A stretch of 64,000 bases of DNA from Saturnia japonica (Eukaryota; Arthropoda; Insecta; Lepidoptera; Saturniidae): positions 4,636 through 68,635 of the forward strand of contig JAVKPJ010000037.1 in the NCBI GenBank assembly GCA_033032175.1. Reading direction: 5' to 3'. Below are positions 14,436-63,654 of the stretch, piece by piece (positions within the stretch are counted from its first letter, which is position 1; each line of letters starts with the position of its first letter). Under the pieces are notes generated by a model. It searched no databases. It worked only from the letters and a program-made list of their open reading frames with translations, and had not been told where the DNA came from. The translations under genes and the position numbers were made by a program.

Positions 14436-14513
14436 GGGGTGCGTGTCAGGAACCTCCTCGTGGTGCACCCCGGGCAACGTCGACCAGTCTGGTCGGCGGC
14501 TGATACCTGACAC
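14436..14513 (+). ncRNA. HDV-like self-cleaving ribozyme candidate (B)
   Basis: Double-pseudoknot pairing can be read directly. P1 is GGGGTGC with GCACCCC. P2 is GTGTCAGG with CCTGACAC (14506-14513). P3 is ACC with GGT, closing loop TCCTCGT. The GGGCAAC segment sits where P1.1 and J1.1/4 belong, P4 is CGACCA with TGGTCG, and J4/2 is GGCTGATA with a candidate catalytic C. Cleavage would fall just before GGGG, which is exactly the telomere/element boundary. Confidence 0.8.
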
Positions 14514-14682
14514 ACTCCTCCCGGTATCCCTCTGGTTATCAGAGGGGACTGTGGAGGGGTATTGGCTGGAGGGCCATTAAAAGCTCCTGGGTGTGGCATG
14601 TGCGCGGCGCACCCAGTACCGGGCTGGGGCCGATGAGGGCTCAATTTGAGCCCCAAGGGCCCAGTTCCGGGTAGCGGCTGGC

Positions 14683-14709
14683 GGGATCGGTAGATTTTAT
14701 ACCGGTCCC
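14683..14709 (+). other. 5' UTR hairpin conserved across elements (B)
   Basis: GGGATCGGT pairs with ACCGGTCCC. The same hairpin occurs with compensated or wobble bases in D (GGGATCGGT/ACCGATCCC, about 21663) and F (GGGATTGGT/ACCGATCCC, about 25212). A second hairpin, GGGCTC/GAGCCC, lies just upstream. Confidence 0.55.
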
Positions 14710-14746
14710 GGCAGGCGTACCGCAAACTGACGATGTTAACGACATG

Positions 14747-17700
14747 ATGGATTCTGCAAAATTAAAGAACACACTACCCCAGGAGGGTACCCGAAAGGGA
14801 CAATCCCTCCCCGAGCATAGCTCGGGCTGCCCCACCGTGTCTGGGGGGGGCAAAATTTTGCGCGATTCGGATAAGAATACAACGACTTTGGCAAGAACAC
14901 GGAAAACCGATTCTGGCGATAATACGACGACTTTGGAACAAGCTAATCTGGACTCTGCACAGCCTACTGTACGGCTTGAGAGGGATCTCTCGCTTGACAA
15001 GTTCGCTGTCCACCATTGGGCAGAGACCTGCGAGAGTTCATTGTCCGTGACTATTTCGGAAAAGCGAAAGCGGTCACATGACGGCAAAGGTGGTGCGATC
15101 GGTGTGGCCCCTGGCAAGGTCTCAACAGCCATGAGGGGTAAAGCCCGGGACCCTGGCACATCTGCTGGGAAAACGCGGGCGGAATCTGTTGGGGGAGAAG
15201 TATGCAGGTCAATATGTCCTGTTGTTGAATCGGCCTGCACCGATGAAGTGGTCGCTGTCGCGGATGTGAGGGTTCTCGACGGGATCGAGCTTCTCGACCC
15301 AGACAGTTTGAGAGCCCTTGCTAAAGAGCAGACGGATGAGATCCTTAAGGTTGCCAAAAATTCTGGCAACCTTAAGGGTACTTATGTCAAACATTTGAAG
15401 GAGGCAGCCTGGATCCTCCAAGAGGTAACTGCCACCGCTCTTGCACGAACGGTGGCGGAGGAGACCCTCCTCCTCCGGCGCGAGACGGGGAGGCTCCGTC
15501 GGGAGATCGATGATCTGAAGGCGGAGCTCTCCTCACTGCGCAGTCGGGTGGAGGTTCCTCCTGTGCCGCCTTCGTCGCAAGTAGTGCCGGATAGCGCCCA
15601 GGGTCCGGAGTTTTTGGTGCAATTGCTGGTGGACGCTATGGGGGTACACATGGAGAGGATGGAGCGGTCCCTCCGGGTCTCAATGGACCACCGGTATATC
15701 CGGTTTGCGGTCTCCACCTTCTCAGGGGAGCCGGCGCGCCGTGCTCCGGGGGGGGCTAACTTCCCCCGATGGGTGGTGAGCCGCCTCAATCGGCAGCTTG
15801 CTGAAGAGGCGGCCATCGTCCAGAGCTGGCGCGCGCCGGCTCATGATGACGTAGAGATCGACGCGTCCGCGTGCCGTTTCCGTAAGGCCCTTACGGCGGT
15901 CTGCGACGCGTCGATGCCGCGGAGCAAAAACCGCCCGCAAGGCAGGCGGGCGGTGTATTGGTGGACCCCGGAGATTGCCGATCTCCGGGTGGCCTGCTCC
16001 GCGGCGCGGCGGCAGCTCCAACGCTGCCGCCGGCGGCAAACTCTGATAGAGGGGGAGGAGGCCCGGTTGCTTGGCCACTACAGGGAAGCTAGGAAGTCCC
16101 TGCAGGTGGCCATCAGCCGGGCAAAGGATGAAAAGTGGGAGGAGCTCCTCAGGACCCTGGACAGGGACCCGTGGGGGCGCCCGTACCGGGTTGCCCGGAA
16201 GAAGTTCCGGGGGCAGGCGCCCCCTTTAACGGAGTCCCTGGACTCAGAGGTCCTGGGGAGGGTCGTGGCCACGTTGCTGCCCGACCCTCCGGAGCTCCTC
16301 CCGCCCCCCATGTTAGATGGGAGTGTTGCGGCGGAGCTGTTGCCACCCCCCCCCGTCACTGAGGAGGAGATGGGGTCGGTGGTGGAGCGCCTCCGCAACA
16401 AGCGGAGGGCGCCAGGCCCGGACGGAGTTCCGGGCCAGGTTTTAAGTGTGGCGCTGAACCACATGGGGGTAGAGCTTCGGGAGCTATTCAACCGATGTTT
16501 GTCGGTTGGACGGTTCCCGAAGCTCTGGAAGATGGGGCGACTCTGCCTTCTGGGGAAGAAGGGTCGCCCCCCGGACTGCCCGTCCTCGTACCGGCCCCTT
16601 GTGCTGCTGGACGACACGGGGAAGATGCTGGAGCGTATTCTGGCGTCTCGTGTCGTCCGGCACATGGCGGAAGTGGGGCCGGTACTTTCGGACCGGCAGT
16701 TTGGTTTCCGGAGAGGGCGTTCAACGCTGGACGCCCTCTCCACCCTGAAGGAGTGGTCCGCGGAGGCGACCGAGGGGGGAGGTAGGCTGTTGGCGGTGTC
16801 GATCGACATCGCCAACGCCTTCAACAGTCTGCCGCACGGTGTTATACGGGAGGCGCTCCGGTTTTTCGGAGTGCCCTCGTACCTGCGGCGGCTGTTGGGG
16901 GACTACCTCCAGGGCAGGGAGGTCGCCTTCGTGGACGGAAGGGGGGCTGTGGTCCGGCGCCGCACTGGGTGTGGGGTTCCACAGGGGTCGGTGTTGGGGC
17001 CGCTCCTGTGGAATATGGGCTATGACTGGGTGCTCCGCGTAGCGCTCCCTTCGGGGATTCGCGTGTTGTGCTACGCGGACGACACACTAGTCGTAGCCCG
17101 GGGGGGTTCTTTTGGAGAGGTGGCGCGCCTGGCCACTGAGGGCGCTGCCCTCGTGGTCGGGCGCATAAAGGCGTTGGGCCTTAGGGTGGCGGCCGAGAAG
17201 ACCGAGGCCATGCTTTTTCATGGGCCTCGGTGTGGGCCGCCTCCTGGGGCCCACATCTACGTAGAGGGGGTGAGGGTCCGGGTTGGGGCCCAGATGAAAT
17301 ATCTGGGCCTCATCCTGGACGGACGATGGCGGTTCGAGTCCCACTTTAAGGGACTCGAACCGCGGATAGTGGGAGCGGCGGCGGCTCTCGGCCGGCTTCT
17401 CCCGAATTCGGGGGGGCCGGGCGCGAGCTGTCGCCGTTTGTTCGCGGGGGTCGTGCGGAGCATGGCCGTCTACGGGGCACCGATCTGGTCGGATGCTCTC
17501 AGCGCCACGAACAGACGCATACTGCGTGCTACGCAGCGTGTCGTGGCGCTGAGGGTAATTCGCGGGTACCGATCGGTGTCCGCGGGGGCGGCCTTGGTTC
17601 TTGCCGGCTCCCCGCTGTGGGAGCTGGAGGCGGAGGTGCTCGCCGCCGTGTACAAATTCACGGCGGCGAGGAGAGGGTTAGGGGAGCCTCCAGCTCCCAC

Positions 17701-18241
17701 GGAGATTGACAGGGTCAGGCGAGAGGCCCGGGAAAATGTTTTCGGGAGGTGGGAGGAGGACCTGGCGGACGCGCGTTATGGGCGTTATACCATAGACGCC
17801 GTCCGCCCGGTCCTCCGAGAGTGGTGTTCCAGGGAGCGTGGCTCCCTGAGCTTTAGACTTGTGCAGGTACTATCCGGACATGGTTGCTTCGGATGGTACC
17901 TGCACAAGATTGCCAGGAGGGAGCCGAACACTACGTGCCACGAGTGCGGGGCTGCAGAGGACACGGCGCAGCACACTTTGTCTGAGTGTGCTGCGTGGGT
18001 GGGGCAGCGCCGCACTCTGGCCGTAGATGTGGGAGGAGACCTCTCGCTGCCGAGTGTGGTGAGAGCCATGCTCGGCAGCGAGAATGCATGGAAGGCGATG
18101 GCCTCCTTCTGCGAGGAAGTCATCTCGCAGAAGGAGGCTGCGGAGAGGGCACGCGAGGGGGATCCCCTGAGCGGCCCTCTCCGACAAAGAAGAACGGGTG
18201 GCAGGAGGAGGCGGTTCATTCGCCAACTCCCGCCACCCTAG
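14747..18241 (+). CDS. In-frame Gag-RT fusion ORF of element B
   Basis: This single open frame of about 1164 codons (ATG 14747; another ATG lies one codon upstream) joins two proteins that are normally separate. Residues 1 to about 312 are the ORF1 N-terminus: the LPQEGT segment, the LKVAKNSGNLKGT core and a coiled coil. At about 15685, just after MERSLRVS, it switches to ORF2 at DHRYIRF, the end of the endonuclease. The rest is the RT (YRPLVLLDD, SIDIANAFN, GVPQGSVLGP, CYADD near 775) and the C-terminal finger CGAAEDTAQHTLSEC. The Gag zinc knuckles and nearly all endonuclease residues are lost. The roughly 3.5-kb frame has no stop or shift. It is probably an internal deletion that happened to stay in frame; whether it is translated is unknown. 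Confidence 0.85.
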   Translation: MDSAKLKNTLPQEGTRKGQSLPEHSSGCPTVSGGGKILRDSDKNTTTLARTRKTDSGDNTTTLEQANLDSAQPTVRLERDLSLDKFAVHHWAETCESSLSVTISEKRKRSHDGKGGAIGVAPGKVSTAMRGKARDPGTSAGKTRAESVGGEVCRSICPVVESACTDEVVAVADVRVLDGIELLDPDSLRALAKEQTDEILKVAKNSGNLKGTYVKHLKEAAWILQEVTATALARTVAEETLLLRRETGRLRREIDDLKAELSSLRSRVEVPPVPPSSQVVPDSAQGPEFLVQLLVDAMGVHMERMERSLRVSMDHRYIRFAVSTFSGEPARRAPGGANFPRWVVSRLNRQLAEEAAIVQSWRAPAHDDVEIDASACRFRKALTAVCDASMPRSKNRPQGRRAVYWWTPEIADLRVACSAARRQLQRCRRRQTLIEGEEARLLGHYREARKSLQVAISRAKDEKWEELLRTLDRDPWGRPYRVARKKFRGQAPPLTESLDSEVLGRVVATLLPDPPELLPPPMLDGSVAAELLPPPPVTEEEMGSVVERLRNKRRAPGPDGVPGQVLSVALNHMGVELRELFNRCLSVGRFPKLWKMGRLCLLGKKGRPPDCPSSYRPLVLLDDTGKMLERILASRVVRHMAEVGPVLSDRQFGFRRGRSTLDALSTLKEWSAEATEGGGRLLAVSIDIANAFNSLPHGVIREALRFFGVPSYLRRLLGDYLQGREVAFVDGRGAVVRRRTGCGVPQGSVLGPLLWNMGYDWVLRVALPSGIRVLCYADDTLVVARGGSFGEVARLATEGAALVVGRIKALGLRVAAEKTEAMLFHGPRCGPPPGAHIYVEGVRVRVGAQMKYLGLILDGRWRFESHFKGLEPRIVGAAAALGRLLPNSGGPGASCRRLFAGVVRSMAVYGAPIWSDALSATNRRILRATQRVVALRVIRGYRSVSAGAALVLAGSPLWELEAEVLAAVYKFTAARRGLGEPPAPTEIDRVRREARENVFGRWEEDLADARYGRYTIDAVRPVLREWCSRERGSLSFRLVQVLSGHGCFGWYLHKIARREPNTTCHECGAAEDTAQHTLSECAAWVGQRRTLAVDVGGDLSLPSVVRAMLGSENAWKAMASFCEEVISQKEAAERAREGDPLSGPLRQRRTGGRRRRFIRQLPPP
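14777..14850 (+). other. Structured RNA element in ORF1 start (B)
   Basis: An outer stem CCCCAG/CTGGGG encloses two arms. Arm 1 is GAGGG/CCCTC capped by CCC-GAAA-GGG, a GNRA-type loop. Arm 2 is CCGAGC/GCTCGG. It lies inside codons of ORF1 and recurs in C, D, F and twice in I. Confidence 0.65.
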
Positions 18242-18521
18242 CCGAGCCAGAGGAGACGGGTCGGGGGGCCCGTCTTCTCATTGCACAGGCTCGGCGGACG
18301 GAGGAGACGGCTAGGGTGTACTGAGCCGTCTCCTATTTAGGCCGGGGCCCGGTTCAGCCGGGCCGGCCGCCGGGGCGGCGCGGCAGAATGCCAGCGCAGT
18401 GCCCGCGTCGCCCCAGTATGGCGGCGGATGGTACACCGTGGAGTTTTAGTGAGTAGGAGTCTCACATAACCACTCGTCCCCCCGGGCGGGTGTGTACCCA
18501 TGATGGGTTTCTCCACGTTAA

Positions 18522-18522
<1 letters not shown>
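18242..18522 (+). other. Beta-type 3' UTR (B) with terminal RNA structure
   Basis: The terminal structure (18436-18518) has GTGGAG/CTCCAC, GTGAG/CTCAC and a CACTCG..GGGTGTG arm, the beta version of the fold seen in A. No gene was seen. Confidence 0.7.
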
Positions 18523-18599
<77 letters not shown>

Positions 18600-18613: not shown

Positions 18614-18690
18614 GGGGTGCGTGTCAGGAACCTCCTCGTGGTGCACCCCGGGCAACGTCGACCAGTCTGGTCGGCGGCTGATACCTGACA
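18614..18690 (+). ncRNA. HDV-like self-cleaving ribozyme candidate (C)
   Basis: The fold is as in B: P1 GGGGTGC/GCACCCC, P2 TGTCAGG/CCTGACA, P4 CGACCA/TGGTCG, J4/2 GGCTGATA. It starts directly after TTAGGTT. Confidence 0.8.
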
Positions 18691-18926
18691 AACTCCTCCC
18701 GGTATCCCTCTGGTTATCAGAGGGGACTGTGGAGGGGTATTGGCTGGAGGGCCATTAAAAGCTCCTGGGTGTGGCATGTGCGCGGCGCACCCAGTACCGG
18801 GCTGGGGCCGATGAGGGCTCAATCTGAGCCCCAAGGGCCCAGTTCCGGACAGCGGCTGGCGGGATCGGTAGCTTTTATACCGGTCCCGGCAGGCGTACCG
18901 CAAACTGACGGTAGAAGGAGATAAGG

Positions 18927-21038
18927 ATGGAGGCAAAACCAAAGAAGTTATTACCCCAGGAGGGTACCAGCTCCTCGGGAGCTGGAGAATCCCTCTCCGA
19001 GCCTGGCTCGGGCTGCCCCGCGTTCTCTGGGGGGGGCAAAGTTTTGCATAGTAAGAAAACGACGACCTTAGCAAGTAACCGGACTGCTGATTCTCATGAC
19101 GATACGACCTTGGCTTCGCCCACACGGAACTTTGAAACGCCTTTTATAAGGCTTGACAGGAATTTGAGGCTTGATGCATTTGCGATTAAGCACTGGGGAG
19201 AAAGCTCCGGAATGGAGACTGTGGCTTTTGACTCCAGAAAGCGGCGGCTTAAAGTTAGTAAAACGGGTTTGCTTGAAGTGGAAACACCTCCAAGCAAAGT
19301 TTCGACTGCTGGGAGGGGTAAGACTCGAGGCCCTGGCTGCTCTGTGGGGTTGGTGCATGGGGCAGTAACTGATGCGGCGCCACAGGTGTGCCCTCTTCCT
19401 GGGTCGACGAGCTCTCTTGAGGATGGTGAACCTGTGGATGAGGCTGGTGCCATTGCGGATGTGGGAGTGCTTGATGGCATCGAGCTTCTCGACCCAGATA
19501 TGCTTAGAGCACTCGCAAAGGAGAAGGTAGATGATATCCTTGGGGTTGCCAAGAAGTCTGGCAACCTCAAGGGTACGTTTGTCAAAAAACTTAAGGAGGC
19601 GGCATGGACGCTCCGGGAAGTTACTGCCACTGCTCTCACGCGTACGGTGGTGGAGGAGACCCTCGTTCTGCGGCGCGAGACGGGGAGGTTACGTCGGGAG
19701 ATCGAGAGTCTCAAGGCGGAGCTCTCCTCGTTACGTAGTCGGGTCGAGGTTGCTCCTGTGCTGCCGTCGTCACAAGGGCTGCCGGATCTAGGGCAGAGTC
19801 AAGATCCTTTGCCGAAGGCGTTGGTGGAAGCGCTGGGGGTCCACATGGCGGGGATGGAGCGGTCTCTCCGGGTCACGATGGGGGAGGTCGTGACCGCCCA
19901 AATTGAGGCCCTGGAGGACCGCCTCCTTCCCGCCAAAGTGGTTCGCCCCCCTCTGGCCGCCGAGAAAAAGAAGAGGAATGGTCCCACATTATCCAAGCCT
20001 ACTAGGCGTAAGGCTGTGGAACGAAAGAGCGTAGAGCCTCTGGGAATAGAGTTGGGCTCATTTCCGGCCCTGAATCCTGTTCCCATCCCGGCTCCAAATC
20101 CCGACCCTATAGTGGGCCCTGAACAAGAGGATGGGTGGACTACCGTGGCCCGTCGCCGTAAACGCCAGGCCAGGGAAGCCCGGAAAGATCCAGCTGTTAC
20201 TCAGTCGGCTGCTGAAACTGTAGCTCGTGCATCTAGCACAAAATTGCCGGCTACCAGAGGCAAGAAGAAGCTCCCCTCGTCACCGCGCTCTGCTGCAGTG
20301 CTTATTACGCTGCAGCCTGGGGCGCTGGCGGGGGGAGTCAGCTACAAGGCGGCTCTGTTAAAGGCACAGCAACATGCCGTGATGTCGGATTTGGAGCTTG
20401 ACAACATCTCGCTTCGGCTCTCAGCAACGGGGGCTAGAATTGTCGAGATCTCAGGTGCCCGTGGAGACGAACAGGCTGACCGGCTTGCCGAAAAACTTCG
20501 GGTGGCGATGGCCGACGTGGCCACTATAGCCAGGCCGGTCAAAAAGGCCGATATCCGCATCGTGGGCCTAGACGAAACGGTGTCGGTGGAGCAGGTTGTG
20601 CTTGCTGCGGCAACGAAGGGAGGCTGCGAGGCAGCACTCATTCGGGCGGGGGAAATTCGACCTTATGGCAGGGGCAGTGGAGCGGTACATTTATCGCTCC
20701 CAGCTGCCGCTGCTAAGGCCTTAATTGAGGCGAAACGGCTTCGGGTTGGGTGGAGTTCGGCGCGAGTACGCCTCCTGGAGGACGGGCCCATGCGGTGTTT
20801 CCGCTGTATGGAGGTGGGCCACACGCGCCCACTCTGCCCATCAACGGCTGTGGATAGAGGAACCTTGTGCTTCCGCTGCGGAGAGCCTGGCCACAAGGCG
20901 CAACAGTGTACAGCTGAAAAGCTGCATTGCGCCTTGTGTGCCGACGCCGGCAGGCCGTCGGGGCATTATATGGGGGGAGCGGCCTGCAGGCCGCCAGAAC
21001 CAGCGAAGAGAGCTGCACCGGCACCGAGACCTCCGTAG
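18927..21038 (+). CDS. ORF1 (Gag-like) of Gag-only element C
   Basis: This intact 703-codon ORF starts at an ATG about 310 nt after the ribozyme start. It has an N-terminal LPQEGT/SGCPAFSGGG segment overlapping the RNA element, the core VAKKSGNLKGTFVKKL at about residue 205, a coiled coil at about 230-275, and a basic central region. The C-terminal knuckles are CFRCMEVGHTRPLC (about 622), CFRCGEPGHKAQQC (about 647) and HCALC. It would bind RNA and could carry the element to telomeres. With no ORF2 downstream it is non-autonomous and would need RT supplied in trans. The intact frame, although clearly diverged from D, suggests the Gag is functionally maintained. Confidence 0.88.
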   Translation: MEAKPKKLLPQEGTSSSGAGESLSEPGSGCPAFSGGGKVLHSKKTTTLASNRTADSHDDTTLASPTRNFETPFIRLDRNLRLDAFAIKHWGESSGMETVAFDSRKRRLKVSKTGLLEVETPPSKVSTAGRGKTRGPGCSVGLVHGAVTDAAPQVCPLPGSTSSLEDGEPVDEAGAIADVGVLDGIELLDPDMLRALAKEKVDDILGVAKKSGNLKGTFVKKLKEAAWTLREVTATALTRTVVEETLVLRRETGRLRREIESLKAELSSLRSRVEVAPVLPSSQGLPDLGQSQDPLPKALVEALGVHMAGMERSLRVTMGEVVTAQIEALEDRLLPAKVVRPPLAAEKKKRNGPTLSKPTRRKAVERKSVEPLGIELGSFPALNPVPIPAPNPDPIVGPEQEDGWTTVARRRKRQAREARKDPAVTQSAAETVARASSTKLPATRGKKKLPSSPRSAAVLITLQPGALAGGVSYKAALLKAQQHAVMSDLELDNISLRLSATGARIVEISGARGDEQADRLAEKLRVAMADVATIARPVKKADIRIVGLDETVSVEQVVLAAATKGGCEAALIRAGEIRPYGRGSGAVHLSLPAAAAKALIEAKRLRVGWSSARVRLLEDGPMRCFRCMEVGHTRPLCPSTAVDRGTLCFRCGEPGHKAQQCTAEKLHCALCADAGRPSGHYMGGAACRPPEPAKRAAPAPRPP
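18954..19036 (+). other. Structured RNA element in ORF1 start (C)
   Basis: The outer stem CCCCAG/CTGGGG and GAGGG/CCCTC are kept. Arm 1 is longer here, CCAGCTCC-TCG-GGAGCTGG, an inserted but perfectly paired extension. Arm 2 is CCGAGC/GCTCGG. Confidence 0.65.
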
Positions 21039-21376
21039 GGGGGTTGCGTAGACGTTGGGTGGCAGGAGGGGGCGGTTTACTCGCCTCCTTCCTCCGCCCT
21101 TGCTGGACCAAGGGGAGACGGGTCGGGGGGCCCGTCTTCCCATTGCACTGGTTCAGCCGTCTGGGAGACAGTTGGGGTTGTACCAGACTGTCTCTCTTTA
21201 GCGCCTGGGCCCGACTGGGGCCGGCCGCCGGGGCGTCGCGGCAGATTGCAACCGCAGTGCCCGCACGTCCCACTATGGCGGCCGATGGTACACCGTGGAG
21301 TTTTAGTGAGTAGGAGTCTCACATAACCACTCGTCCCCCCGGGCGGGTGTGTACCCATGAAGGGTTTCTCCACGTT
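21039..21376 (+). other. Post-ORF1 junction and beta 3' UTR (C)
   Basis: GCGTAGACGTTGGG, then a trace of the ORF2 3' end, then the beta 3' UTR with GTGGAG, GTGAG/CTCAC and CTCCAC. The GCGTAGACG junction phrase is shared with D, E and G. Confidence 0.7.
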
Positions 21377-21394
21377 AAAAAAAAAAAAAAAAAA

Positions 21395-21414
21395 GGTTAG
21401 GTTCCCCCCTTGTT
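21395..21414 (+). repeat. Telomeric remnant plus C6 filler between C and D
   Basis: GGTTAGGTT is followed by CCCCCC (21404-21409) and TTGTT before the GGGG ribozyme start of D. The C-run is neither telomeric nor part of the element. Confidence 0.8.
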
Positions 21415-21491
21415 GGGGTGCGATGTCAGAAACCTCCTCGTGGTGCACCCCGGGCAACGTCGACCACTTTGGTCGGCGGCTAATATCTGAC
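21415..21491 (+). ncRNA. HDV-like self-cleaving ribozyme candidate (D)
   Basis: P2 here is GTCAGA/TCTGAC where B and C have GTCAGG/CCTGAC, a compensated pair. P1 is GGGGTGC/GCACCCC, P4 CGACCA/TGGTCG with a different loop, and J4/2 GGCTAATA. Confidence 0.8.
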
Positions 21492-21727
21492 GCGCTCCTC
21501 CTGGTATCCCTCTGCTTATCAGAGGGGACTATGGAGGAGTGCTGGCTGGAGGGCCGTTAAAAGCTCCTGGGTGTGGTATGTGCGCGGCGCACCCAGTATC
21601 GGGCTGGGGCCGATGAGGGCTCAGTTTGAGCCCCAAGGGCCCAGTTCCGGACAGCGGCTGGCGGGATCGGTTGTTGTCATACCGATCCCGGCAGGCGTAC
21701 CGCAAACTGACGGGTAGAGCAGTGAAG

Positions 21728-23860
21728 ATGGAAGCAAACCTTAAAAAGAAACTACCCCAGGAGGGTACCCGCAAGGGAGAATCCCTCTCCGAGCAAAGCT
21801 CGGGCTGCCCCACGTTTTCTGGGGGGGGCAAAGATTTGCACAAGACTGGTAAAATCACAACGACTTTGGCAAGAACTGGGATAACCGATACTAGCAATAA
21901 AACGACGACCGTGGAAAAACTAAGACTGGACTCCGAACAACCATCGGTACGGCTTGTGCGGGATGTTTCGCTGGACCGGTTCTCTGTCCGACATTGGGCA
22001 GGGAGCTCTGACAGCTTATCATCAGTGACTGTCGCTGATAGGAAGCGGTCGCATGGCGACAAGTCTGGTGCGGACGGGGTGGCCCCCAGCAAGGTGACGA
22101 CGGCCCAGAGGGGTAAAGCCCGTATCCTGGGCTCCTCTGCTGGGGTGCCACGTGCAGCGGCAGTAGTTGAGGCAGATAGGGCAAAGTGTCCTGCTTCTGA
22201 ACTGGCCTGCACTGAAGAGGCGGTTGCCGTTGCAGATGTTGGAGTGCTCGAAGGTATCGAGCTCCTCGATCCTGATACGTTGAGGGCCCTCGCAAAGGAG
22301 AAAGTAGACACGATCCTTGAGGTTGCCAAGAAATCTGGCAACCTCAAGGGTACATTTGTAAAAAACCTGAAGGAGGCGGCGTGGATCCTCCATGAGGTCA
22401 CTGCCACAGCTCTCACGCGTACGGTGGCGGAGGAGACCCTCCTTCTGCGGCGCGAGACGGGGAGGCTCCGTCGGGAGGTTGAAGAACTCAAGGCGGAGCT
22501 TGCCTCGTTCCGTAATCGGGGGGAGACTCTACCTGCGCCACCGTTGCCACCAGCACCGGCACCTGTGCAGGAATCCCTCGTGCAAGCATTGGTAGAAGCT
22601 ATGGGGATCCATATGGGGACGATGGAGCGGTCCCTCCGCGTCACGATGGGGGAGGTAGTGACCGCCCAAATTGAGGCCCTGGAGGACCGTCTCCTCCCTG
22701 CCCCAGTGGTTCGCCCCCCTCTGGCTGCCGACAAGAAGTTGGGTGGTGCCACTGTCCCTAGACCAGTGGGTACTACAGCTTTGAGCCGCAAACCAATGGT
22801 GCCGGGGGCTGCGGCTCGCACCCCTGCACCACGTGCGGAGGGTAGGTCTTCTGGTAGCCATCCTCAGGAGCCCCTGGGTATGAGTATGGAGTGGGCCGTG
22901 CGCGGCGCTGATGCGCATGTGCCAGCCACAACTGACGCGAACGCTGACGGATGGACTGCTGTGTCCCGTCGCCGCCGAAGAAGAAGGGAGAAGCTCTCCA
23001 CGGTACCGAGGCCTTCTGTGGGAGTAGCTCCCGTACCTGTTGGGAGGGCACCTGGGCATAAGCCTAAGGCAAAGCTCCCCTCGACACCGCGCTCAGCTGC
23101 AGTGCTTATTACACTGCAGCCAGAGGCCTTGGCGAGGGGACTGAGCTATAGCGAAGCTCTCTTAAAGGCTCGGGACCAAGTTGTGTTGGCGGATCTCGGT
23201 ATCGAGAATATATCCACTAGGGCCACAGCTACGGGATCCAGGATTGTGGAGATCCGGGGCTCCCGTGGCCCGGAACAGGCGGACCGGATAGCCGAAATCC
23301 TACAGACGGTGTTGGTGGGCGAGGCTACCATCGCCAGGCCGGTTAAAAGGGCGGACGTTCGCGTTATTGGGTTGGACGACTCAGTGTCGGTGGAAGAGGT
23401 TGTGGCAGCTGTGGCTGCTAAGACCGGCTGTGAGAAACCCCTAATTAGGGCTGGAGCCATACGGGCCTATGGCAGAGGCACAGGTGCAGTGCACCTCTCG
23501 CTCCCCGTCGCGGCTGCGAAGGTGTTGGTTGAGGCAGGTCGCCTCCTTGTCGGGTGGAGTGCGGCTCGTGTGCGCCTCCTGGAAGGTGGGCCCATGCGCT
23601 GTTTCAGGTGCATGGGTGTGGGCCACACTCGCCCACTCTGCCCGTCGACAGTTGACCGCGGGGCCCTGTGCTTCCGATGTGGGCTGCCCGGCCACAAGGC
23701 GCTGCAGTGCGCTGAAAAGCACCACTGCGCCGTATGTGCCGATGCCGGGAGACCGGCTGGGCATCAAATGGGAGGAGCTAGCTGCAGGCCGCCGACCACT
23801 AAGGGCAAGGCGCCGCCGATGCCAAATACCTCAGCAGAGGTTAGCGTAGACGTTGGGTAG
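21728..23860 (+). CDS. ORF1 (Gag-like) of Gag-only element D
   Basis: This intact ORF has about 710 codons. ATG 21728 is chosen because it aligns with the starts of B, C and F; the frame is open further upstream. Features in order are LPQEGTRKGESL, the VAKKSGNLKGTFVKNL core, a Glu/Arg/Leu coiled coil, ALEDRLLPAPVVRPPLAA, a basic linker, and knuckles CFRCMGVGHTRPLC (about 623), CFRCGLPGHKALQC (about 648) and HCAVC. The C-terminus (SAEVSVDVG) differs from that of C and runs into the shared GCGTAGACG junction. No stop or frameshift was seen. Role and dependence on RT in trans are as for C. Confidence 0.88.
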   Translation: MEANLKKKLPQEGTRKGESLSEQSSGCPTFSGGGKDLHKTGKITTTLARTGITDTSNKTTTVEKLRLDSEQPSVRLVRDVSLDRFSVRHWAGSSDSLSSVTVADRKRSHGDKSGADGVAPSKVTTAQRGKARILGSSAGVPRAAAVVEADRAKCPASELACTEEAVAVADVGVLEGIELLDPDTLRALAKEKVDTILEVAKKSGNLKGTFVKNLKEAAWILHEVTATALTRTVAEETLLLRRETGRLRREVEELKAELASFRNRGETLPAPPLPPAPAPVQESLVQALVEAMGIHMGTMERSLRVTMGEVVTAQIEALEDRLLPAPVVRPPLAADKKLGGATVPRPVGTTALSRKPMVPGAAARTPAPRAEGRSSGSHPQEPLGMSMEWAVRGADAHVPATTDANADGWTAVSRRRRRRREKLSTVPRPSVGVAPVPVGRAPGHKPKAKLPSTPRSAAVLITLQPEALARGLSYSEALLKARDQVVLADLGIENISTRATATGSRIVEIRGSRGPEQADRIAEILQTVLVGEATIARPVKRADVRVIGLDDSVSVEEVVAAVAAKTGCEKPLIRAGAIRAYGRGTGAVHLSLPVAAAKVLVEAGRLLVGWSAARVRLLEGGPMRCFRCMGVGHTRPLCPSTVDRGALCFRCGLPGHKALQCAEKHHCAVCADAGRPAGHQMGGASCRPPTTKGKAPPMPNTSAEVSVDVG
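21755..21828 (+). other. Structured RNA element in ORF1 start (D)
   Basis: The outer stem is CCCCAG/CTGGGG. Arm 1 is GAGGG/CCCTC with CCC-GCAA-GGG, another GNRA-type loop. Arm 2 is CCGAGC/GCTCGG. Confidence 0.65.
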
Positions 23861-24169
23861 AAAGGGGGGGCGCTTTTGCCTCCTTCCTCTGCTCTAGCTG
23901 AACCAAGGGGAGATGGGTCGGGGGGCCCGTCTTCCCATTGCACTGGTTCAGCCGTCTGGGAGACAGTTGGGGTTGTACCAGACTGTCTCTCTTTTGCGCC
24001 GGGGCCCGACTGGGGCCAGCCGCCGGGGCGACGCGGCTTGATTGCAACCGCAGTGCCCGCGCGTCCCACTATGGCGGCCGATGGTACACCGTGGAGTTTT
24101 AGTGAGTAGGAGTCTCACATAACCACTCGTCCCCCCGGGCGGGTGTGTACCCATGACGGGTTTCTCCAC

Positions 24170-24171
<2 letters not shown>
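23861..24171 (+). other. Beta 3' UTR (D)
   Basis: Beta 3' UTR with the GTGGAG, GTGAG/CTCAC and CTCCAC terminal structure. No gene was seen. Confidence 0.7.
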
Positions 24172-24233
<62 letters not shown>

Positions 24234-24235
<2 letters not shown>

Positions 24236-24243
24236 TGCCCCCC
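24234..24243 (+). repeat. Junction GGTG plus C6 between D and E
   Basis: The poly(A) of D is followed by GGTG and CCCCCC. Only a partial telomeric unit remains. Confidence 0.7.
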
Positions 24244-24536
24244 TTGTTGGGTGGAGTGCGGCACGCGTCCGGCTCCTTGAGGGAGGACCTCTGAGATGTT
24301 ACAGGTGCCTGGACGTGGGCCACACTCGGCCTGTCTGTCCATCGACAACGGATAGGGGAGCACTATGCTTCAAGTGTGGGCAACCTGGCCACAAGGCACT
24401 ACAGTGCGTTGCTGAAAAGCTGCATTGTGCCCTGTGTGCCGACGCTGGAAGGCCGTCGGGGCATTATATGGGGGGAGCGGCCTGCAGGCCACCAGACCCA
24501 GCAAAGAGAGCTGCATCAGCATCGAGTCCTCTGTAG
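24244..24536 (+). pseudogene. ORF1 C-terminal fragment (E)
   Basis: It encodes only the zinc-knuckle end of the beta Gag: CYRCLDVGHTRPVC, CFKCGQPGHKALQC and HCALC, ending SSPL then TAG. No start codon is expected because of the 5' truncation. The sequence matches the end of ORF1 in G. Confidence 0.85.
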
Positions 24537-32565: not shown

Positions 32566-32593
<28 letters not shown>

Positions 32594-40171: not shown

Positions 40172-40249
40172 GGGGTGCGAGTCAGGAACCTCCGCGTGGT
40201 GCATCCCGGGCAACGGCGGCCGCTTCACGGCCGACGGCTAATATCTGAC
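40172..40249 (+). ncRNA. HDV-like self-cleaving ribozyme candidate (J)
   Basis: P1 is GGGGTGC/GCATCCC (one G-U), P2 GTCAGG/TCTGAC (one G-U), P4 CGGCCG/CGGCCG where B has CGACCA/TGGTCG, and J4/2 GGCTAATA. It follows TTAGGTT directly. Confidence 0.78.
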
Positions 40250-40660
40250 GGGGGGGCGACGTTTACTGCTCTTTAGAGGGTCGAAGACGTGGCGTGTTGG
40301 CGGGCTCGGCGTGCATTCACACTGCCGTCGGGCGGGCAGGTTGGACAACTTGTTCGGCTTGTCGCCGACGATCTCGTAATCCCATCGGAGTGTCGTGGTC
40401 ACGTCTCGCGGCTTCGTATGGGACCGAGGGTCTTGGCTTCACCGCCCGGACCGCGAGGAAGAAAACCTCTATAAAAAATTACCCTAATCCCAAGCGGCGG
40501 CGCACCGCGAGGGGATGCGTGGCTGGTGGGAGACCAGTCACGAGTGCGACCCCCGTCAGAGAACCGGCCGACTCTCTTGACGGGTTACGCTAGGCTTACC
40601 CAGGCACAGGGGGCACTGCCTGGGTGGACTGTTACTTCCCCCACAATCGTGGGAACAAAA
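40250..40660 (+). other. K-type 5' UTR (J)
   Basis: A long segment matches 57800-58140 of K, including the CTCTATAAAAAATTACCC and GGGGGCACTGCCTGGGTGGAC phrases. It is unrelated to the F/I 5' UTR. No ORF was supported. Confidence 0.7.
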
Positions 40661-42847
40661 ATGAGCAAACCTTTTAGAAAAACCTCTGTAAATATTGTAA
40701 ATATACCTAGTTTTAAGAAGAACGAGGACGGTGGCTCCACTAGTGGAGTTACGTGTGAGGAGAGAATAGTCGATGGTCGCGAAGGTGAATTCAATCCCGT
40801 TGTGGCTATCGTAAGGGACCCTTCACTAGACAGATTGTCGGTGTGTAGCGAGTCAAGTGAGGCTTCTATGGTGACGGTAGGGTCATCTGAGAACCCTATG
40901 TCTGGCGCTGAGGACGCTCCGCCAAGCTCCTTCTGGCGGAAAAGGAAGGTCGAAGGTGCTGACCAGACGCAAACGCCAGTTTCTATCCCCAAAAAGGGTA
41001 GGGGGCGGCCCCCAACTACAGGAGAAATATGTGGGGTTGGCAAAGGTGAAGGAGGATTATATCCGGAAGAAAGAGGAGTTGCTTTCGCCTAACAGCTGAA
41101 GAAGAGTTGGCGGAGGAGGCATCGCGGGCACGATACAACAGGTCCGCTAAGGAGATTGCCACTGCACCGGAGGAAGAGCTCTCCTCCCAATTAAGTGAAA
41201 GGGTGCTGGGCGACGTGGAGGTGATCCTCAAGGTCGCCAAAAAATCGGCGAACCTAAAGGGCACTTTCCAGAAGGCCCTCAAGGATGCGGCTGTGTCTAT
41301 TAAGGATGCAGTGGAAAAATACCGCAGTCGGACCACCACCGAGGAGTTGGCCAGGGTCCAAGCAGCGTACGCAAGGCTAGAGGAAACGAACACCAAACAA
41401 GCGGAAGAACTGGCAGAGCTCCGGAAGGAGCTCGCGGAAATGAGGGTAGACCTAAATAAGGTTCGCCAGCCATCGCCAGGAGTTGAAGTCTCCTCAGTCT
41501 TTGCAAAGGAAACGGGATCGGACCCTTCAACATCTTTAGCTCCACGGGAGAGGGAGGATTTTCCGCCATTGCCTCAGCGGCAACAAGGAAGGCCTCGGAG
41601 CGAGAGTTCTGACATTGACGGGAAGTTTTGAGCGTATACTTAATATAAATGAGTGCTCGCTTCGAGGCCTTGGAGGATAGACTCCTACCAGAAAAACAAC
41701 TCCGCCCTCCGTTAGCAGCGGATAGGAAAGTTACGCAGACGGCGAAAACGAGAGTGCCGGAAACTCGGCTTCCACGGCAGCCTGGTCCCCAGCAAGTGGT
41801 TGCGAAGAAAGGTAACCAGAAAAAAGGGAAAGCAGGGCCCAATTCAGCTGCACCCGCCTATCGCCCCTCCTATAGTGAGAAGGTGGCCACTCCCAAACCT
41901 TCTGAGGGAGAATGGGTTTTAGTAGGCAAGGGGGGCAAGGCCACAAAGAAAAAGGTGAAAAAGGCGGCTAAAGTAGCACCTCCAAAAAGGAACAGAGCCC
42001 CCAAACTTCGCACCTCCAAATCCACTGCGGTGGTTATAACGCTGCAACCTGAGGCTGCAAAGAGGGGCATCACCTACAGGGAGGTGCTAACGAAAACATG
42101 GGAGCAAGTCGACCTTGGCGCTCTAGGCATTGAGGTCGTCAACTATAGAAGGGCAGCAACAGGGGCTGCCCTCTTAGAGGTTCCAGGTGCCACGAGTGGT
42201 CCGCAAGCAGACGCCCTTGCAGAAAAAATTAGGGCGTCCTTCCCAGGTGATGACATTCGGGTGACCAGGCCTATGAGGTGTGCAGACGTGCGCATCTCAG
42301 GCCTAGATGACTCCGTTACAGTGGAGAAGTAATTGCCGCCGTTGCACGTGCTGGGGAATGCCCCCCAGAGCACGTTAAGGCAACTGATCCACGCCCCAGC
42401 TTTAATGGGGCTGGAACGGCCGTGGTTTCGTGCCCAGTGACGGTGGCCAAAAAAACTCGGCGACGGCCGTAAGCTATTGGTGGGTTGGGTGTCGGCGCGA
42501 GTAAAAGTCTTGCAGCCCCGCTCACAGAGGTGTTTCCGTTGCCTTCAGGCCGGTCATCTGGGGGCAAAATGCTCCTCAGAAGTTGACTGCAGTGCACTCT
42601 GCTATCGCTGCAGTCAACCCGGCCATAAGGCGGCAGGCTGCACAGCGGACCCGCATTGTTTAATATGAGCCGGTGCGGGTAAACCACTGGGCACCGGGTG
42701 GGTGGCAAGACATGCGTTGCGTCGTCGCCACCCAAGAAGAGAAGGAGGGGGAAGAGGGGAAAAGCCCCGACACAGCCCCTGACCTCGTCGGCTGTTCCTA
42801 AAGCGCCGACAACGGTCCAGACGAAGGAGATGGAAGAAGCCAATTAA
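40661..42847 (+). pseudogene. ORF1 (Gag-like) of element J, several frameshifts
   Basis: The start is ATG 40661. The N-terminus (MSKPFRKTSVNIVNI) is unlike that of F and lacks the LPQEGT segment and its RNA element. From DPSLDRLSV onward it follows F: SFWRKRK, KKGRGRPPTTG, coiled coil, VAKKSANLKGTFQKAL, linker, CFRCLQAGHLGAKC, CYRCSQPGHKAAGC. Frame changes lie near 41030-41100, 41630, 42330, 42455 and 42660, mostly single-base. The last frame reaches TAA at 42845-42847, overlapping the ORF2 start. Confidence 0.82.
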
Positions 42848-42852
42848 TAATG
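42845..42852 (+). promoter_or_regulatory. TAATAATG stop-start overlap in J
   Basis: TAA 42845-42847, then TAATG with the ORF2 ATG at 42850. Confidence 0.8.
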
Positions 42853-45800
42853 TCTATTCGTATCCTTCAAGGGAATCTGAACCACTGTGCCAGTGCGCAG
42901 GACCTGCTAGTCCAAAGCATGGCACAGTGGTCAATCAACGTCGCCGTGATAGCCGAGCCATACTTCGTGCCGCCCCGAGATAACTGGGCGGGAGATCGAG
43001 ATGGCTCGGTTGCCATTATTTCTCGACCCGCCGCCGGTTCCCCGCCCTTCGCTAACATCAAGGAGGGCCAGGGATCCGTGGCGGCGCGTCTCGGCGACAT
43101 TGTGGTGGTGGGGGTGTACGCACCCCCTCGATGGAGTCTCGCCGACTTCGAGGCACTTTTGGTGGAGTTGGGCACTGTCGTCTCGGGCAGCCACCCTCAC
43201 CCCGTCCTAGTCCTCGGGGACTTCAACGCCAAATCTACGGCTTGGGGTTCCCCATCCACGGATAATAGGGGTGAGGCGCTGGAAGAGTGGGCCGTAACAT
43301 CAGGCCTACTCGTCCTTAACAGGGGCTCAATAAACACGTGCGTGCGACCGCAGGGCGAATCCATAGTGGACATATCGTTCGCAAGCCCTGCAATAGCACG
43401 CCGTGTTCGGGACTGGAGAGTCCTGGAGGGGGTAGAGACACTTTCGGACCATCTTTACATACAGTTCGAAGTGTCCGCCCAGACCTCGGGACGAACGGTC
43501 CCGAGAGGCCCTGAAGAGGACAGTCCACGTTGGGCTCTGGGACGTTTCGATCGCGAGGTGTTCCTCGAGGCCGCCATTGTGCAAGCCTGGGTGATGGACG
43601 GAACACCCGAGAGGCCTGCCGATGTCGAAGATGGGGCGGAGCGACTGCGAGCCGCAGTGTCGCATATGTGTGACACGGCGATGCCGAGAGTTGGGCGTCG
43701 TCCAGCTAAGCGCCAGGTGTACTGGTGGAACGCTGAAATCGCGCAGCTGCGCGTACTTTGCGTAGCAGCGCGCCGCCAGTACACCAGGATAAGGCGCAGA
43801 CGACGTCATTCGCAGGTCGTAAGCCCCGGAGAGGCGGAGCTGCATGAGGGTTACAGAGCAGCTAAGCTCACCCTCCGACGGGCCATTGAGCGCGCAAAAG
43901 CTCTGGCCAGAGAGGAATTCCTGGAGACGCTCAATCGGGATCCGTGGGGCCGCCCGTACCGGATGGTACGCGGCAAACTTCGCCAATGGGCCCCCCCAGT
44001 AACCCAGAGTCTCCAGTCAGAGTTCCTCGAGGAGGTGGTGAGCGCTCTGTTTCCCTCCAGGGAGGAGTTTTCACCTCCCCACATGGCTCCGCCCGCGGCC
44101 GAGCCCGACGTGGACCGAGACGACGTGCCCGACGTGACCCGGGAGGAATTGAGGGCGGCGGTGAAACGCCTCGCGGCCAAAAACACCGCCCCAGGGCCCG
44201 ACGGCCTGCCTGGTCGAGCGTGGGTCCTGGCCCAAGAGGTCCTCGAGCCCCGACTATTGGGACTCCTCAGCGTGTGTCTGGAGCAGGGCCGGTTTCCGTC
44301 GAAGTGGAAAACCGGCCGTCTAGTCCTGCTCCAAAAGCCGGGGCGCCCGGCGGACTCGCCGTCCGCGTACCGCCCCATTGTGCTGCTCGACGAGGTGGGC
44401 AAACTCTTCGAGAGAGTGATTGCAAACCGCCTCGTCGGCCATTTAAACGCACGTGGGGCCGGATTTGGCGGCGAACCAGTTCGGTTTCCGCAGAGGGCGC
44501 TCCACGATTGACGCGATCGCGCAAGTGAGGAGTCTGGCGGAGGAGGCCATTGCTCGGGGCGAGGTGGTGATAGCGGTGTCTTTAGACATCGCAAATGCCT
44601 TTAACACCTTGCCCTGGGCCACAATTAGAGAGGCGCTCCGATTTCACGGAGTGCCGTCCTACCTCCGCCGCATAGTCGGGGCGTACCTCTCCGAGAGGTA
44701 TGTAGTCTTCCCGGGTCGGAGTGGAATGTGTCGGCGAGACGTCGTATCCGGTGTTCCCCAGGGGTCAGTTTTGGGCCCTCTTCTCTGGAACATCGGATAC
44801 GACTGGGTGTTGCGCGGTGCGCTCCTCCGTGGCCTCAGTGTCGTGTGTTATGCCGACGACACACTGGTCACGTCGAGAGCTAAGTCGCACCGCGAAGCCG
44901 CGATATTGGCAACCGCTGGGGTGGCACACGTCGTCGGTCGGATCCGGCGTCTGGGACTAAATGTGGCGCTGCAAAAATCTGAGGCTCTGTGTTTCCATGG
45001 GCCTCGGAATGCGCCACCGAGAGGGTCCCAGATCATCGCGGGAGGCGTCCCAATCGGCATCCAGTCCAATATGAAATATCTTGGACTCGTTCTGGATAGC
45101 CGATGGGACTTTGTAGAGCACTTCAGGCAGCTGACCCCCGTCTTATGGGCGCTGCGGCCGCGTTAGCGTGGCTGTTGCCCAACCTTGGGGGTCCAAATTC
45201 CGCGTGCCGAAGGCTCTACATGGGGATCGTGCGGTCCATGGCCCTTTACGGGCCCCGGTGTGGGCTGAGAACCTGGCGGCCCGTAATATCGCCGCTCTGC
45301 GCAAACCGCAGAGAGCGATGACCGTCAGAGCAGCCCGGGGATATCGCACGATCTCCTTCGAGGCGGCCTCCCTACTGGCCGGATCTCCGCCATGGGATCT
45401 GGAGGCGGAAGCCCTCGCGTCGCTCTACAGGTGGCGCGGCGAGGCGTTAAAGAGAGGAATACGACATGCGCCTCGTGAGATCGAGGCGCGAAGGGCAGAG
45501 CTGCACCAGATCCTGGTCATGGCGGAGTGGGACCGACGACTGGAGCACCCCAGCGCCGGCGTGACGACCGTCGAGGCCGTGAGGCCTCATTTGACGGCAT
45601 GGGTACGGAGGCGGCACGGCACCCTAACCTTCCGGCTGACGCAGGTGCTCTCGGGACACGGATGTTTCGGGAGTTACCTGTGTCGCATAGGCCGAGAGCC
45701 AACAACTGGGTGCCATCATTGTGGCTGCGCGGTCGATAACGCGCAGCATACACTTGCCGCCTGTCCCGCTTGGGACTCGTCACGTCGCGACCTCATCGCG

Positions 45801-45906
45801 GCTATAGGGCCCAATCTCTCACTCCCGACCGTCGTTTCATCCATGGTCGAGGGTGAGAGCGGGTGGAACTCCGTCGCCTCATTCTGCGAGGACGTCATGC
45901 TCGCAA
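42850..45906 (+). pseudogene. ORF2 of element J, frameshifted and cut by gap
   Basis: It is very close to F. Endonuclease (QGNLNH, AEPYF, LGDFNAKS, LSDHLYIQF) and RT (SLDIANAFN, GVPQGSVLGP, CYADD near 44855) are present. Single-base changes against F shift the frame: an added A near 44446, a lost C near 45137 and a lost base near 45250. The Trp codon mutated to TGA in F is TGG here (near 45528). The C-terminal finger CGCAVDNAQHTLAAC is present. Coding runs to CEDVMLA and then into the N's, so about the last 40 residues are missing. Confidence 0.85.
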
Positions 45907-57575: not shown

Positions 57576-57646
57576 TTGGTTTGGTTTGGTTTGGTTAAGT
57601 TTGGTTAAGTTTGGTTAAGTTTGGTTAAGTTTGGTTAGGTTAGGAC
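57501..57646 (+). repeat. Telomere-like variant repeat tract
   Basis: About 18 TTAG units (57501-57572) are followed by TTTGG units (about 57576-57595), four TTAAGTTTGG units, then GGTTAGGTTAGG. This grades from a 4-bp variant to the canonical 5-bp insect telomere repeat. It directly abuts the broken BEL/Pao pol. Confidence 0.85.
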
Positions 57647-57656
57647 TTGGCGTCTT
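57643..57656 (+). repeat. Target-site duplication, left copy (K)
   Basis: GGACTTGGCGTCTT lies directly before the GGGG start of K. The preceding A may also belong to it. It is identical to 63653-63666. Confidence 0.85.
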
Positions 57657-57734
57657 GGGGTGCGAGTCAGGAACCTCCGCGTGGTGCATCCCGGGCAACG
57701 TCGGCCGCTTTTCGGCCGGCGGCTAATACCTGAC
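57657..57734 (+). ncRNA. HDV-like self-cleaving ribozyme candidate (K)
   Basis: P1 is GGGGTGC/GCATCCC, P2 GTCAGG/CCTGAC, P3 ACC/GGT with loop TCCGCGT, then GGGCAAC, P4 CGGCCG/CGGCCG and J4/2 GGCTAATA. The predicted cleavage site coincides with the end of the target-site duplication, which independently fixes the element's 5' end. Confidence 0.82.
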
Positions 57735-58160
57735 GAGTGGGGGCCTCGTCTGGCATCCCTCTGAATATCAGAGGGGGCCAACAGACGTGGCGTTGGTGGA
57801 CTTGATGTGCACGTACACTGCCATCAGGCAGCTAAGTGGGGTATATTTTACCTCACTTACAACCGCCGTTCTCGTAATCCCATCGGAGTGTCGTGGTCAT
57901 GTCTCGCGGCTTCGTATGGGACCGAGGGTCTTGGCTTAACCGCCCGGACCGCGAGGAAGAAAACCTCTATAAAAAATTACCCCAATCCTAAGCGGCGGCG
58001 CACCGCGATAGGATGCATGGCTGATGGGTTGATCAGTCTTTAGTGCGACCCCCGTCAGAGAACCGGCCGACTCTCTGATGGGTTACGCTAGGCTTACCCA
58101 GGTACAGGGGGCACTGCCTGGGTGGACCGTTTTTTTTCCCCCATACTCGTGGGATAAACA
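57735..58160 (+). other. K-type 5' UTR
   Basis: Shared with J; contains CTCTATAAAAAATTACCC. The B/C/D/F/I 5' UTR hairpins and the ORF1-start RNA element are absent. Confidence 0.65.
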
Positions 58161-60257: not shown

Positions 60258-60259
60258 TG
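60254..60259 (+). promoter_or_regulatory. ATGATG overlap of ORF1 stop and ORF2 start (K)
   Basis: The ORF1 TGA (60255-60257) lies inside ATGATG, and both ATGs are in the ORF2 frame. This differs from the UAAUG of the alpha copies but keeps the stop/start overlap. Confidence 0.75.
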
Positions 60260-63200: not shown

Positions 63201-63343
63201 CAATGACCTCCTTCTGCGAGGATGTTATGCAGAAGGAGGTCGCGGAGAGGGCTCGCGAGGAGGATCCTCTAAGCGGCCCTCTTCGCCAAAGACGCATGGG
63301 TGGCCGGAGGAGGCGCTTCATTCGCCAACTTCCGCCACCCTAG
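60254..63343 (+). CDS. ORF2 of element K: RT with deleted endonuclease catalytic segment
   Basis: About 1029 codons from the overlapping ATGs, with no stop or frameshift. The start QANLNHSATAQDLLVQ is followed directly by PFWAGALDDSVAIY. About 24-27 residues present in A, F and J, including the AEPY segment with the catalytic Glu, are missing in frame. Other endonuclease motifs remain (LGDLNAKS, LSDHRYIRF). RT is complete: YRPLVLLDD, SLDIANAFN, GVPQGSVLGP and CYADD near 641, exactly 27 codons earlier than in A. The C-terminal finger is CGAVEDTAQHTLAEC. Prediction: RT competent, endonuclease dead unless helped in trans. An ATG-initiated frame also extends upstream to 60179, within ORF1, and is less likely to be used. 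Confidence 0.88.
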   Translation: MMQHNHTSFLQANLNHSATAQDLLVQPFWAGALDDSVAIYSSGLPLTVKERGAGYVSAARGEYAIIGVYFSPNRALVEFEAFLDSLGQVVRRLSPLPIVLLGDLNAKSRTWGAVATSPRGLAVEEWTVEVGLSLLNRGTVFTCVRQNGGSVVDVSFATPSVARRVHEWRVLEEVETLSDHRYIRFEVSTSAEGGIARPRGGAAFPRWVVGRLNREMAEEAACVQSWRSPAPETEEIDASAVRFRAAITEVCDASMPRSNNRPQNRRAVYWWSPQIANLRAACSAARRLLQHSRRRRSRQPGEEVRLYDAYRECKKSLQVAIGRAKDEAWEELLQTLDGDPWGRPYRVARKKFRGQAPPITETLQSGVLLRVVGTLFPDPPEFLPPPMPPRAGTAVTPSLPHPVSDSEMGLVVERLRRKWRAPGPDGVPGQILLLALGHLDGELRELFDRCITVGRFPNLWKEGRLCLLAKEGRPPDCPSSYRPLVLLDDTGKMLERIIASRVVRHMKELGSELSDGQYGFRVGRSTVDALTALKSLSTEVTGRGERLLAVSLDIANAFNSLPHGAIREALRYFGVPLYLRRLLGDYLNERRVAYVDSQGMKVERQARCGVPQGSVLGPLLWNIGYDWVLRGALPKGVRIFCYADDTLVVARGGNWPEVERLATEGVALVVGRIRRLGLRVAVEKTEALLFHGPRCGPPPGANITIDGCRIRVGAQMKYLGLSLDGRWRFESHFVGLGPRIMGAAAALGRLLPNSGGPGSCCRRLYEGVVRSMAVYGAPIWVDALSAHNKRVLRAAQRVVALRAIRGYRSVSAGAAFVLAGSPPWELEAEVLAAVYRFTAARRQIGEPPAPMEVEQRRREARVEVLQRWRRDLAGERYGRYTIDAVRPVLEKWVTREQGSLTFRLVQVLSGHGCFGWYLHRIARREPTTACHECGAVEDTAQHTLAECAAWDERRRALVAVVGGDLSLSSVVKAMLDSEGAWYAMTSFCEDVMQKEVAERAREEDPLSGPLRQRRMGGRRRRFIRQLPPP

Positions 63344-63620: not shown

Positions 63621-63652
<32 letters not shown>

Positions 63653-63654
<2 letters not shown>

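Follow-up and report, generated by a model that had tools for sequence, protein, structure and literature searches.

Predicted HDV-like self-cleaving ribozymes at the exact 5′ ends of five SART-type elements in Saturnia japonica

Results

Elements at the locus

The window, that is, the whole 64,000-nucleotide stretch of Saturnia japonica DNA analysed here, holds an array of SART-type non-LTR elements, five of which (B, C, D, J and K, all on the + strand) start with about 78 nt that fit the double pseudoknot of HDV-like ribozymes. Element K is full length (57657..63652) and consists of the ribozyme, a 5′ UTR, ORF1 (58158-60257), ORF2 with endonuclease (EN) and reverse transcriptase (RT) (60176-63343), a 3′ UTR and a poly(A). 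The domains found in its ORF2 are those of an APE-type endonuclease and a reverse transcriptase (Exo_endo_phos_2, 2.6e-19; RVT_1, 5.8e-30), and among solved structures human LINE-1 ORF2p came first (4.1e-16), with the TRAS1 endonuclease (1wdu, 4.1e-12) and the R1 endonuclease lower. A protein search with K ORF2 found 233 relatives from 7989 candidates scored; among the best 120 of these 233, 23 carried an organism name, namely 20 Lepidoptera, two ants and one bacterial record. Alignment A1 combines K ORF2 with 12 of the best 120 proteins, and its eight organism-named entries, one of them a bacterial record that is possibly a contamination, are 50-58% identical to K ORF2. No relative was found when K ORF2 was compared with viral contigs and alignment A1 with genome contigs.

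The other four elements are less complete. In element B (14436..18599), the ribozyme is followed by the N-terminal part of ORF1, which runs on in frame into the end of EN and RT, then by a 3′ UTR and a poly(A). This internal deletion removed the end of ORF1 and most of the endonuclease and left a single open frame of 1188 codons, in which a domain search gave no endonuclease match. Elements C (18614..21394) and D (21415..24233) are ORF1-only copies, each with the ribozyme, ORF1 (18915-21038 in C, 21617-23860 in D), a 3′ UTR and a poly(A), and with no match to ORF2. Element J (40172..45906) joins a K-type leader with ribozyme to a body of the type found in a further element, E (24913-31125), and is broken off by an N run from 45907. 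This run of 100 N (45907-46006), probably a scaffold gap, also separates the SART array from the following sequence.

The organisation of these elements resembles that of Bombyx mori SART1Bm, which comprises a 5′ UTR, ORF1, ORF2 with EN and RT, a 3′ UTR and a poly(A) joined to AGG at the TT|AGG site, TRAS elements being inserted in the opposite orientation (PMC7265360). This likeness refers to the published description of SART1Bm, and the word "ribozyme" is absent from the main text of that paper (PMC7265360). In all ten SART-copy poly(A) ends inspected in the window, GG is next. Orientation and insertion site would point to SART and not TRAS, although in B. mori one lineage of SART seems to be inserted the opposite way (PMC10088271).

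A double pseudoknot common to the five copies

The predicted ribozymes, which together make up alignment A2, lie on the + strand at 14436..14513 (B, predicted cut before 14436), 18614..18690 (C), 21415..21492 (D), 40172..40249 (J) and 57657..57734 (K). P1 (GGGGTGC/GCAYCCC) forms 7 of 7 pairs in every copy, one being a G·U in both J and K. P2 (GTCAGR/YCTGAC) has 6 pairs in every copy, one of them G·U in J, and can be extended in B, C and D. P3 is ACC/GGT and closes a 7-nt L3, TCCKCGT, in which J and K have G for T; P1.1 is CC/GG. P4 has 8 pairs, reduced to 7 in J by one G/A mismatch. The segments GGGCAAC and GGCTRATA, the latter preceding the 3′ strand of P2, were found in all five copies, and the order and spacing of P1, P2, P3, P1.1 and P4 are right for the nested double pseudoknot throughout. 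A sequence-only reading had proposed HDV-like folds at these five places, with the same P1, P2, L3, GGGCAAC, P4 and GGCTRATA; all five copies read as it described, J alone showing a mismatch, in P4. Nested minimum-energy folds contained P1 and P4 in all five copies and P3 in D only, with a method that cannot represent the pseudoknot and P2.

The bases expected of a catalytic core are invariant in the five copies: the cytosine of the J4/2 stretch C-T-R-A, the P1.1 CC/GG, and L3 at all positions except one. From what is known of HDV, we take this J4/2 cytosine to be the catalytic one. The J4/2 cytosine is described as essential in HDV-like ribozymes (PMC11331408). Besides, the core CCTCCTCGTGG is present in B, C and D; it is the most conserved segment of the Drosophila melanogaster R2 ribozyme, and zebra finch R2 has it unchanged (PMC5035012). 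Few nucleotides separate P1 from P2, namely 2-3 if P2 is counted as 6 pairs and zero in B if it is extended to 8. In the CPEB3 ribozyme, the absence of a P1/P2 spacer abolished activity and a single nucleotide gave little (PMC4908430), and predicted HDV-like folds can be weakly active (PMC11331408).

Covariance models, descriptor and covariation

When the whole Rfam library was run against the window, a single match exceeded its curated score, HDV-F-prausnitzii (RF02682) at 21415-21492, that is, copy D. At a relaxed threshold, this model matched all five copies (E 6.1e-5 to 0.013), with 44.4 bits in D, 38.6 in C (E 0.0014), 38.1 in B (E 0.0018), 35.6 in K (E 0.0065) and 34.4 in J (E 0.013); only D passes the gathering score of 44, the other four being below it. 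The HDV_ribozyme model (RF00094) matched D (41.9 bits), B and C, in each case below its cut-off. The window gave 18 Rfam matches at E up to 1, and the 8 of HDV type all fall at the five ribozyme sites.

A strict double-pseudoknot descriptor, written with the five copies in view, matched exactly these copies on the + strand of the whole window and nothing on the − strand, and it gave no match on either strand of 100 windows resampled from local dinucleotide frequencies. As the descriptor was shaped on the copies, we give more weight to the Rfam result. An earlier, loose descriptor had been discarded as unspecific, for it fitted the + strand from at least 316 start positions and the − strand from many as well. 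A check by covariance model and descriptor, as the sequence-only reading had suggested, thus came out in favour of its proposal, with RF02682 matching five of five copies (one above the cut-off) and five descriptor matches set against none in the resampled windows. The exact pattern of the ribozyme core had no match in viral contigs.

We also asked how far covariation bears on the fold. Over 26 pairs and five copies, 127 of 130 pair cells (97.7%) pair, a proportion that drops to 33.8-41.1% with the partner columns 1-3 positions out of register. An outer P2 pair fails in both J and K, and a P4 pair fails in J, which accounts for the three non-pairing cells. Both sides differ between copies at two of the scored pairs, P2 16-74 (A-U in D) and P4 49-61 (A-U to G-C in J and K), and also at the innermost P4 pair, outside the scored columns. 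In 500 shuffles, the percentage paired was reached by 16 and the covariation score by 15, the count of pairs changed on both sides by 138 and that of further pair types by 463. The covariation of P4, and of P2 in D, had been read correctly, yet it represents few independent changes: J and K share the P4 change, and the differences in P4 separate just two groups, B, C, D and J, K. Covariation across the five copies is thin and adds little support.

The predicted cut and the element boundary

In all five copies the predicted cut lies directly before the first base of the element, and TT precedes it. The flanks of B, C and J end with GGTTAGGTT and the next base is the G1 of the element; since the telomere would continue with A and not G, the boundary is unambiguous in these three. 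Element K is framed by an exact target-site duplication, whose 5′ copy AGGACTTGGCGTCTT (57642..57656, +; on the 3′ side, its first A could equally belong to the poly(A)) ends directly before G1, and whose 3′ copy GGACTTGGCGTCTT (63653..63666, +) directly follows the poly(A). Element D has a 16-nt near-duplication with one mismatch, AGGTTCCCCCCTTGTT on the 5′ side (21399..21414, +) and GGTGCCCCCCTTGTT on the 3′ side (24234..24248, +; the A before it could equally belong to the poly(A)). The earlier statement that the cut falls exactly at the junction of telomere and element, and in K at the end of the duplication, is borne out for B, C, J and K, and has to be amended for D, whose flank is a near-duplication and not a clean telomere boundary. 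Just upstream of the K duplication, positions 57501-57644 contain (TTAG)n, then a degenerate GTTTGGTTAA array and then two TTAGG units.

Apparently exchangeable 5′ leaders

The leaders of B, C and D can be aligned with those of K and J over 78 to 121 columns from position 1 (79 to 85% identity), the remainder being unalignable, so that the common 5′ part is the ribozyme and at most about 40 following bases. As the ribozyme is the sole alignable leader part between these two groups, it appears to have been kept where the rest of the leader diverged or was exchanged. The leaders of J and K have about 500 nt in common (82.7%). The body of J is instead close to that of E (87.5% over 4954 columns), its leader being of the K type (compare 57657-58174); E and J therefore have similar bodies and different leaders. 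Conversely, the leaders of B, C and D align with those of E (from 24913) and of a further element, L (from 33745), only from position 129 or 130, or 181 in E and L (75 to 81%), the first 180 nt of E and L being unalignable with the ribozyme-bearing leaders. The simplest account, as read from these alignments, would be that 5′ leaders have been exchanged between SART families and that the ribozyme is a swappable module.

Elements E and L represent a sister SART family, whose leaders (24913-25093 in E, 33745-33925 in L) start with GGGG at or near the telomeric boundary, after five extra C in E and directly after GGTTAGGTT in L. At the relaxed Rfam threshold, no match was obtained in 33725-34000, and 24899-25170 gave one meaningless match (11.3 bits, E 8.7). 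Since L starts directly after GGTTAGGTT with no HDV-like Rfam match, not every SART appears to need a ribozyme of this class for its 5′ end to be precise. A post hoc test of HDV topology (P1 GGGTC/GACCC, P2 GCAGGC/GCCTGC and a P4) fitted E and L, but only 2 of 1000 sequences resampled from E. This test was fitted by eye first, did not require P3 and P1.1, placed P1 one base inside the element end, was given B, D, J and K and not C, and missed J; moreover, E and L are nearly identical in that region. We therefore treat the idea that the E/L leader may be an RNA of HDV topology as a weak lead.

As a separate observation, runs of 5 to 8 extra C lie between GGTTAGGTT and the next element at 24899-24912, 31126-31142 and 32594-32607. 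These intervals adjoin E and two truncated copies on their 5′ side; no such run precedes B, C, J, K and L.

ORF1-only copies

Besides C and D, the window contains two 5′-truncated ORF1-only SART copies, at 24243-24898 and at 31159-32593, the latter with ORF1 split over two frames. The open ORF1 of C and D encodes a CCHC zinc knuckle, whose Pfam match exceeds the cut-off in C and stays below it in D, as in K. The sequence GCGTAGACG occurs in all four ORF1-only copies just before the start of homology to the end of K ORF2 and its 3′ UTR. Because the four copies share this junction, ORF2 would have been lost once, in a common ancestor; with the two truncated copies almost the same at this point, the junction has three independent witnesses.

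Over 680 codons, ORF1 of C and D is 62% identical, with dS about 1.0 and dN/dS 0.31 by simple Nei-Gojobori counts; comparisons with K were saturated, and the ratio was obtained for C and D only. In the C-terminal part of ORF1, the identity of C and D with one another and with the truncated copies is 68 to 82% (the truncated pair being identical), and the four ORF1-only copies are 51 to 57% identical to K. The tree support for setting these four apart from K is low (0.16), and a D-like start of ORF1 is also coupled to an RT, in element B. When 7997 candidates were scored against the C ORF1 protein, five proteins matched at E up to 1e-10, none of which came with genomic context.

Discussion

Our results support the view that these SART-type elements begin, to the base, with an HDV-like double pseudoknot, as judged from the Rfam matches, the descriptor with its random-sequence control and the target-site duplications, which bear out the same reading made earlier from the sequence. 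We further propose, with high confidence, that the five elements each carry a self-cleaving ribozyme that would free the element RNA from read-through transcripts. Four of them (B, C, D and J) lie directly behind the poly(A) of another element and a short TTAGG-type stretch, in the same orientation, and K lies behind a degenerate repeat array. Because of this adjoining arrangement, B, C, D and J would be readable by transcription coming from upstream, and transcripts from the upstream elements may run into them. The first 78 nt of such a read-through RNA would fold into the double pseudoknot, and the J4/2 cytosine would presumably promote cleavage just before G1. Cleavage would remove the upstream RNA and leave a transcript starting exactly at the element, whose 5′ end could then be copied to the last base during target-primed reverse transcription. 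Copying of a ribozyme-cut 5′ end would fit the start at the same G in all five insertions. The 5′ fold remaining on the RNA may, in addition, protect an uncapped transcript and help translation to start.

Three other explanations have to be weighed. First, the copies could be dead relics whose ribozymes reflect past activity, a scenario that is itself compatible with self-cleavage. B is internally deleted, C and D are without ORF2 and J is broken off at the N run, as this scenario would have it. However, both ORFs of K are open over their full length and K has an exact duplication, as expected of a fairly young insertion, and the dN/dS of 0.31 between C and D ORF1 speaks for selection since their split; we consider it unlikely that relics are all that is seen here. 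Second, the fold may have been kept as a 5′ RNA structure serving end protection, protein binding or an internal translation start, with cleavage weak or lost and a promoter starting the RNA at G1. It is true that an HDV or HDV-like fold used as a 5′ module improves R2-based transgene insertion (PMC11331408), and that L3 is altered in J and K, and P4 in J as well. A purely structural role, however, does not require invariant catalytic-core bases, which were found in five of five copies, and this makes such a role improbable in our view. Finally, that the 78 nt are a DNA-level element, such as an initiator or promoter at +1, and HDV-like by chance is hardly credible: the five copies do share the same start base and the promoters of some non-LTR elements start RNA at the precise 5′ end (PMC3774820), yet chance matches to an Rfam ribozyme at the exact boundary of five copies are very unlikely, and the descriptor found none in 100 resampled windows. 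The ribozyme reading is, on the evidence of these sequences, very likely right.

The pairing of ribozyme and element is not new. The sequence-only reading had implied that an HDV-like ribozyme was new for TTAGG-specific elements, a claim of priority that we rejected: telomere-specific SART already figures in a 2024 eLife paper as one of the retrotransposons that carry an HDV-like ribozyme in 5′ position, with Ruminski et al. 2011 and Weinberg et al. 2019 given as sources (PMC11620745). By the description given in that citing paper, the published SART ribozymes agree with ours in class, in kind of element and in their location in the 5′ UTR (PMC11620745). The five copies are hence a well-preserved new example of a known ribozyme/element pairing and not a new phenomenon. 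The 2011 study of Ruminski is reportedly the source for the SART ribozymes.

The closest known counterparts outside SART are the R2 ribozymes, which share the CCTCCTCGTGG core and the 5′ position (PMC3774820, PMC5035012). The R2 target is 28S rDNA, and the ribozyme of Drosophila R2 cuts precisely at the 5′ junction; in many other R2s the cut lies further upstream, within 28S RNA (PMC3774820). In our copies, the predicted cut coincides with the element boundary in five of five. The window offers five well-kept examples of a way in which a telomere-inserting element could release its RNA, with a precise 5′ end, from read-through transcripts. Furthermore, B, C and D share little with K and J beyond the ribozyme, and a sister family is present that lacks it; whether full-length insertion requires the ribozyme could consequently be tested directly on this array.

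The ribozyme-bearing ORF1-only copies are, in our opinion, what most deserves further attention. The R2 and R2/R1 SIDEs are non-autonomous elements with a ribozyme and an internal deletion, dependent on autonomous relatives, and the R2 SIDEs set a precedent for deletion derivatives that carry a ribozyme (PMC3414825). SIDEs consist of a 5′ ribozyme and a 3′ end, and C and D differ from them by a complete ORF1 (PMC3414825). In organisation, C and D would seem to resemble HeT-A, a telomeric non-LTR element with ORF1 only and no RT that stands in tandem arrays with RT-encoding elements (PMC4700185, PMC5537684) and depends on another element (PMC4700185, PMC5537684). The analogy has to allow for the fact that Drosophila telomeres are without canonical repeats (PMC4700185). 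We found no report of an ORF1-only SART in the open-licence literature, in a search too narrow to call it unpublished; in PMC11445735, SART does not occur as a whole word.

One could imagine that C and D belong to a SART lineage that is old, ORF1-only (gag-only) and maintains itself; it would carry the ribozyme in its full-length copies, take RT from full-length SART, keep its own Gag under selection and be an independent counterpart of HeT-A on TTAGG telomeres. The same proposal would make the leader a cassette, its HDV-like ribozyme exchanged elsewhere (24913, 33745) for an unrelated leader, perhaps a self-processing RNA that is divergent or of another type. We put this forward as a tentative idea that may well prove wrong. 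Exchange with full-length relatives could mimic long-term selection on the ORF1 of C and D. If the ORF1-only copies do move, the HeT-A arrangement of an RT-less telomeric element and an RT donor would have arisen more than once.

A last observation concerns the SART ORF2 regions, which in antisense (− strand) match the Rfam family mir-3389 at 12802-12870, 29506-29574, 38531-38599, 44738-44806 and 62061-62134. These five matches score 44 to 60.5 bits, with a cut-off of 75, and the mir-3389 miRNA family may derive from a SART-like element.
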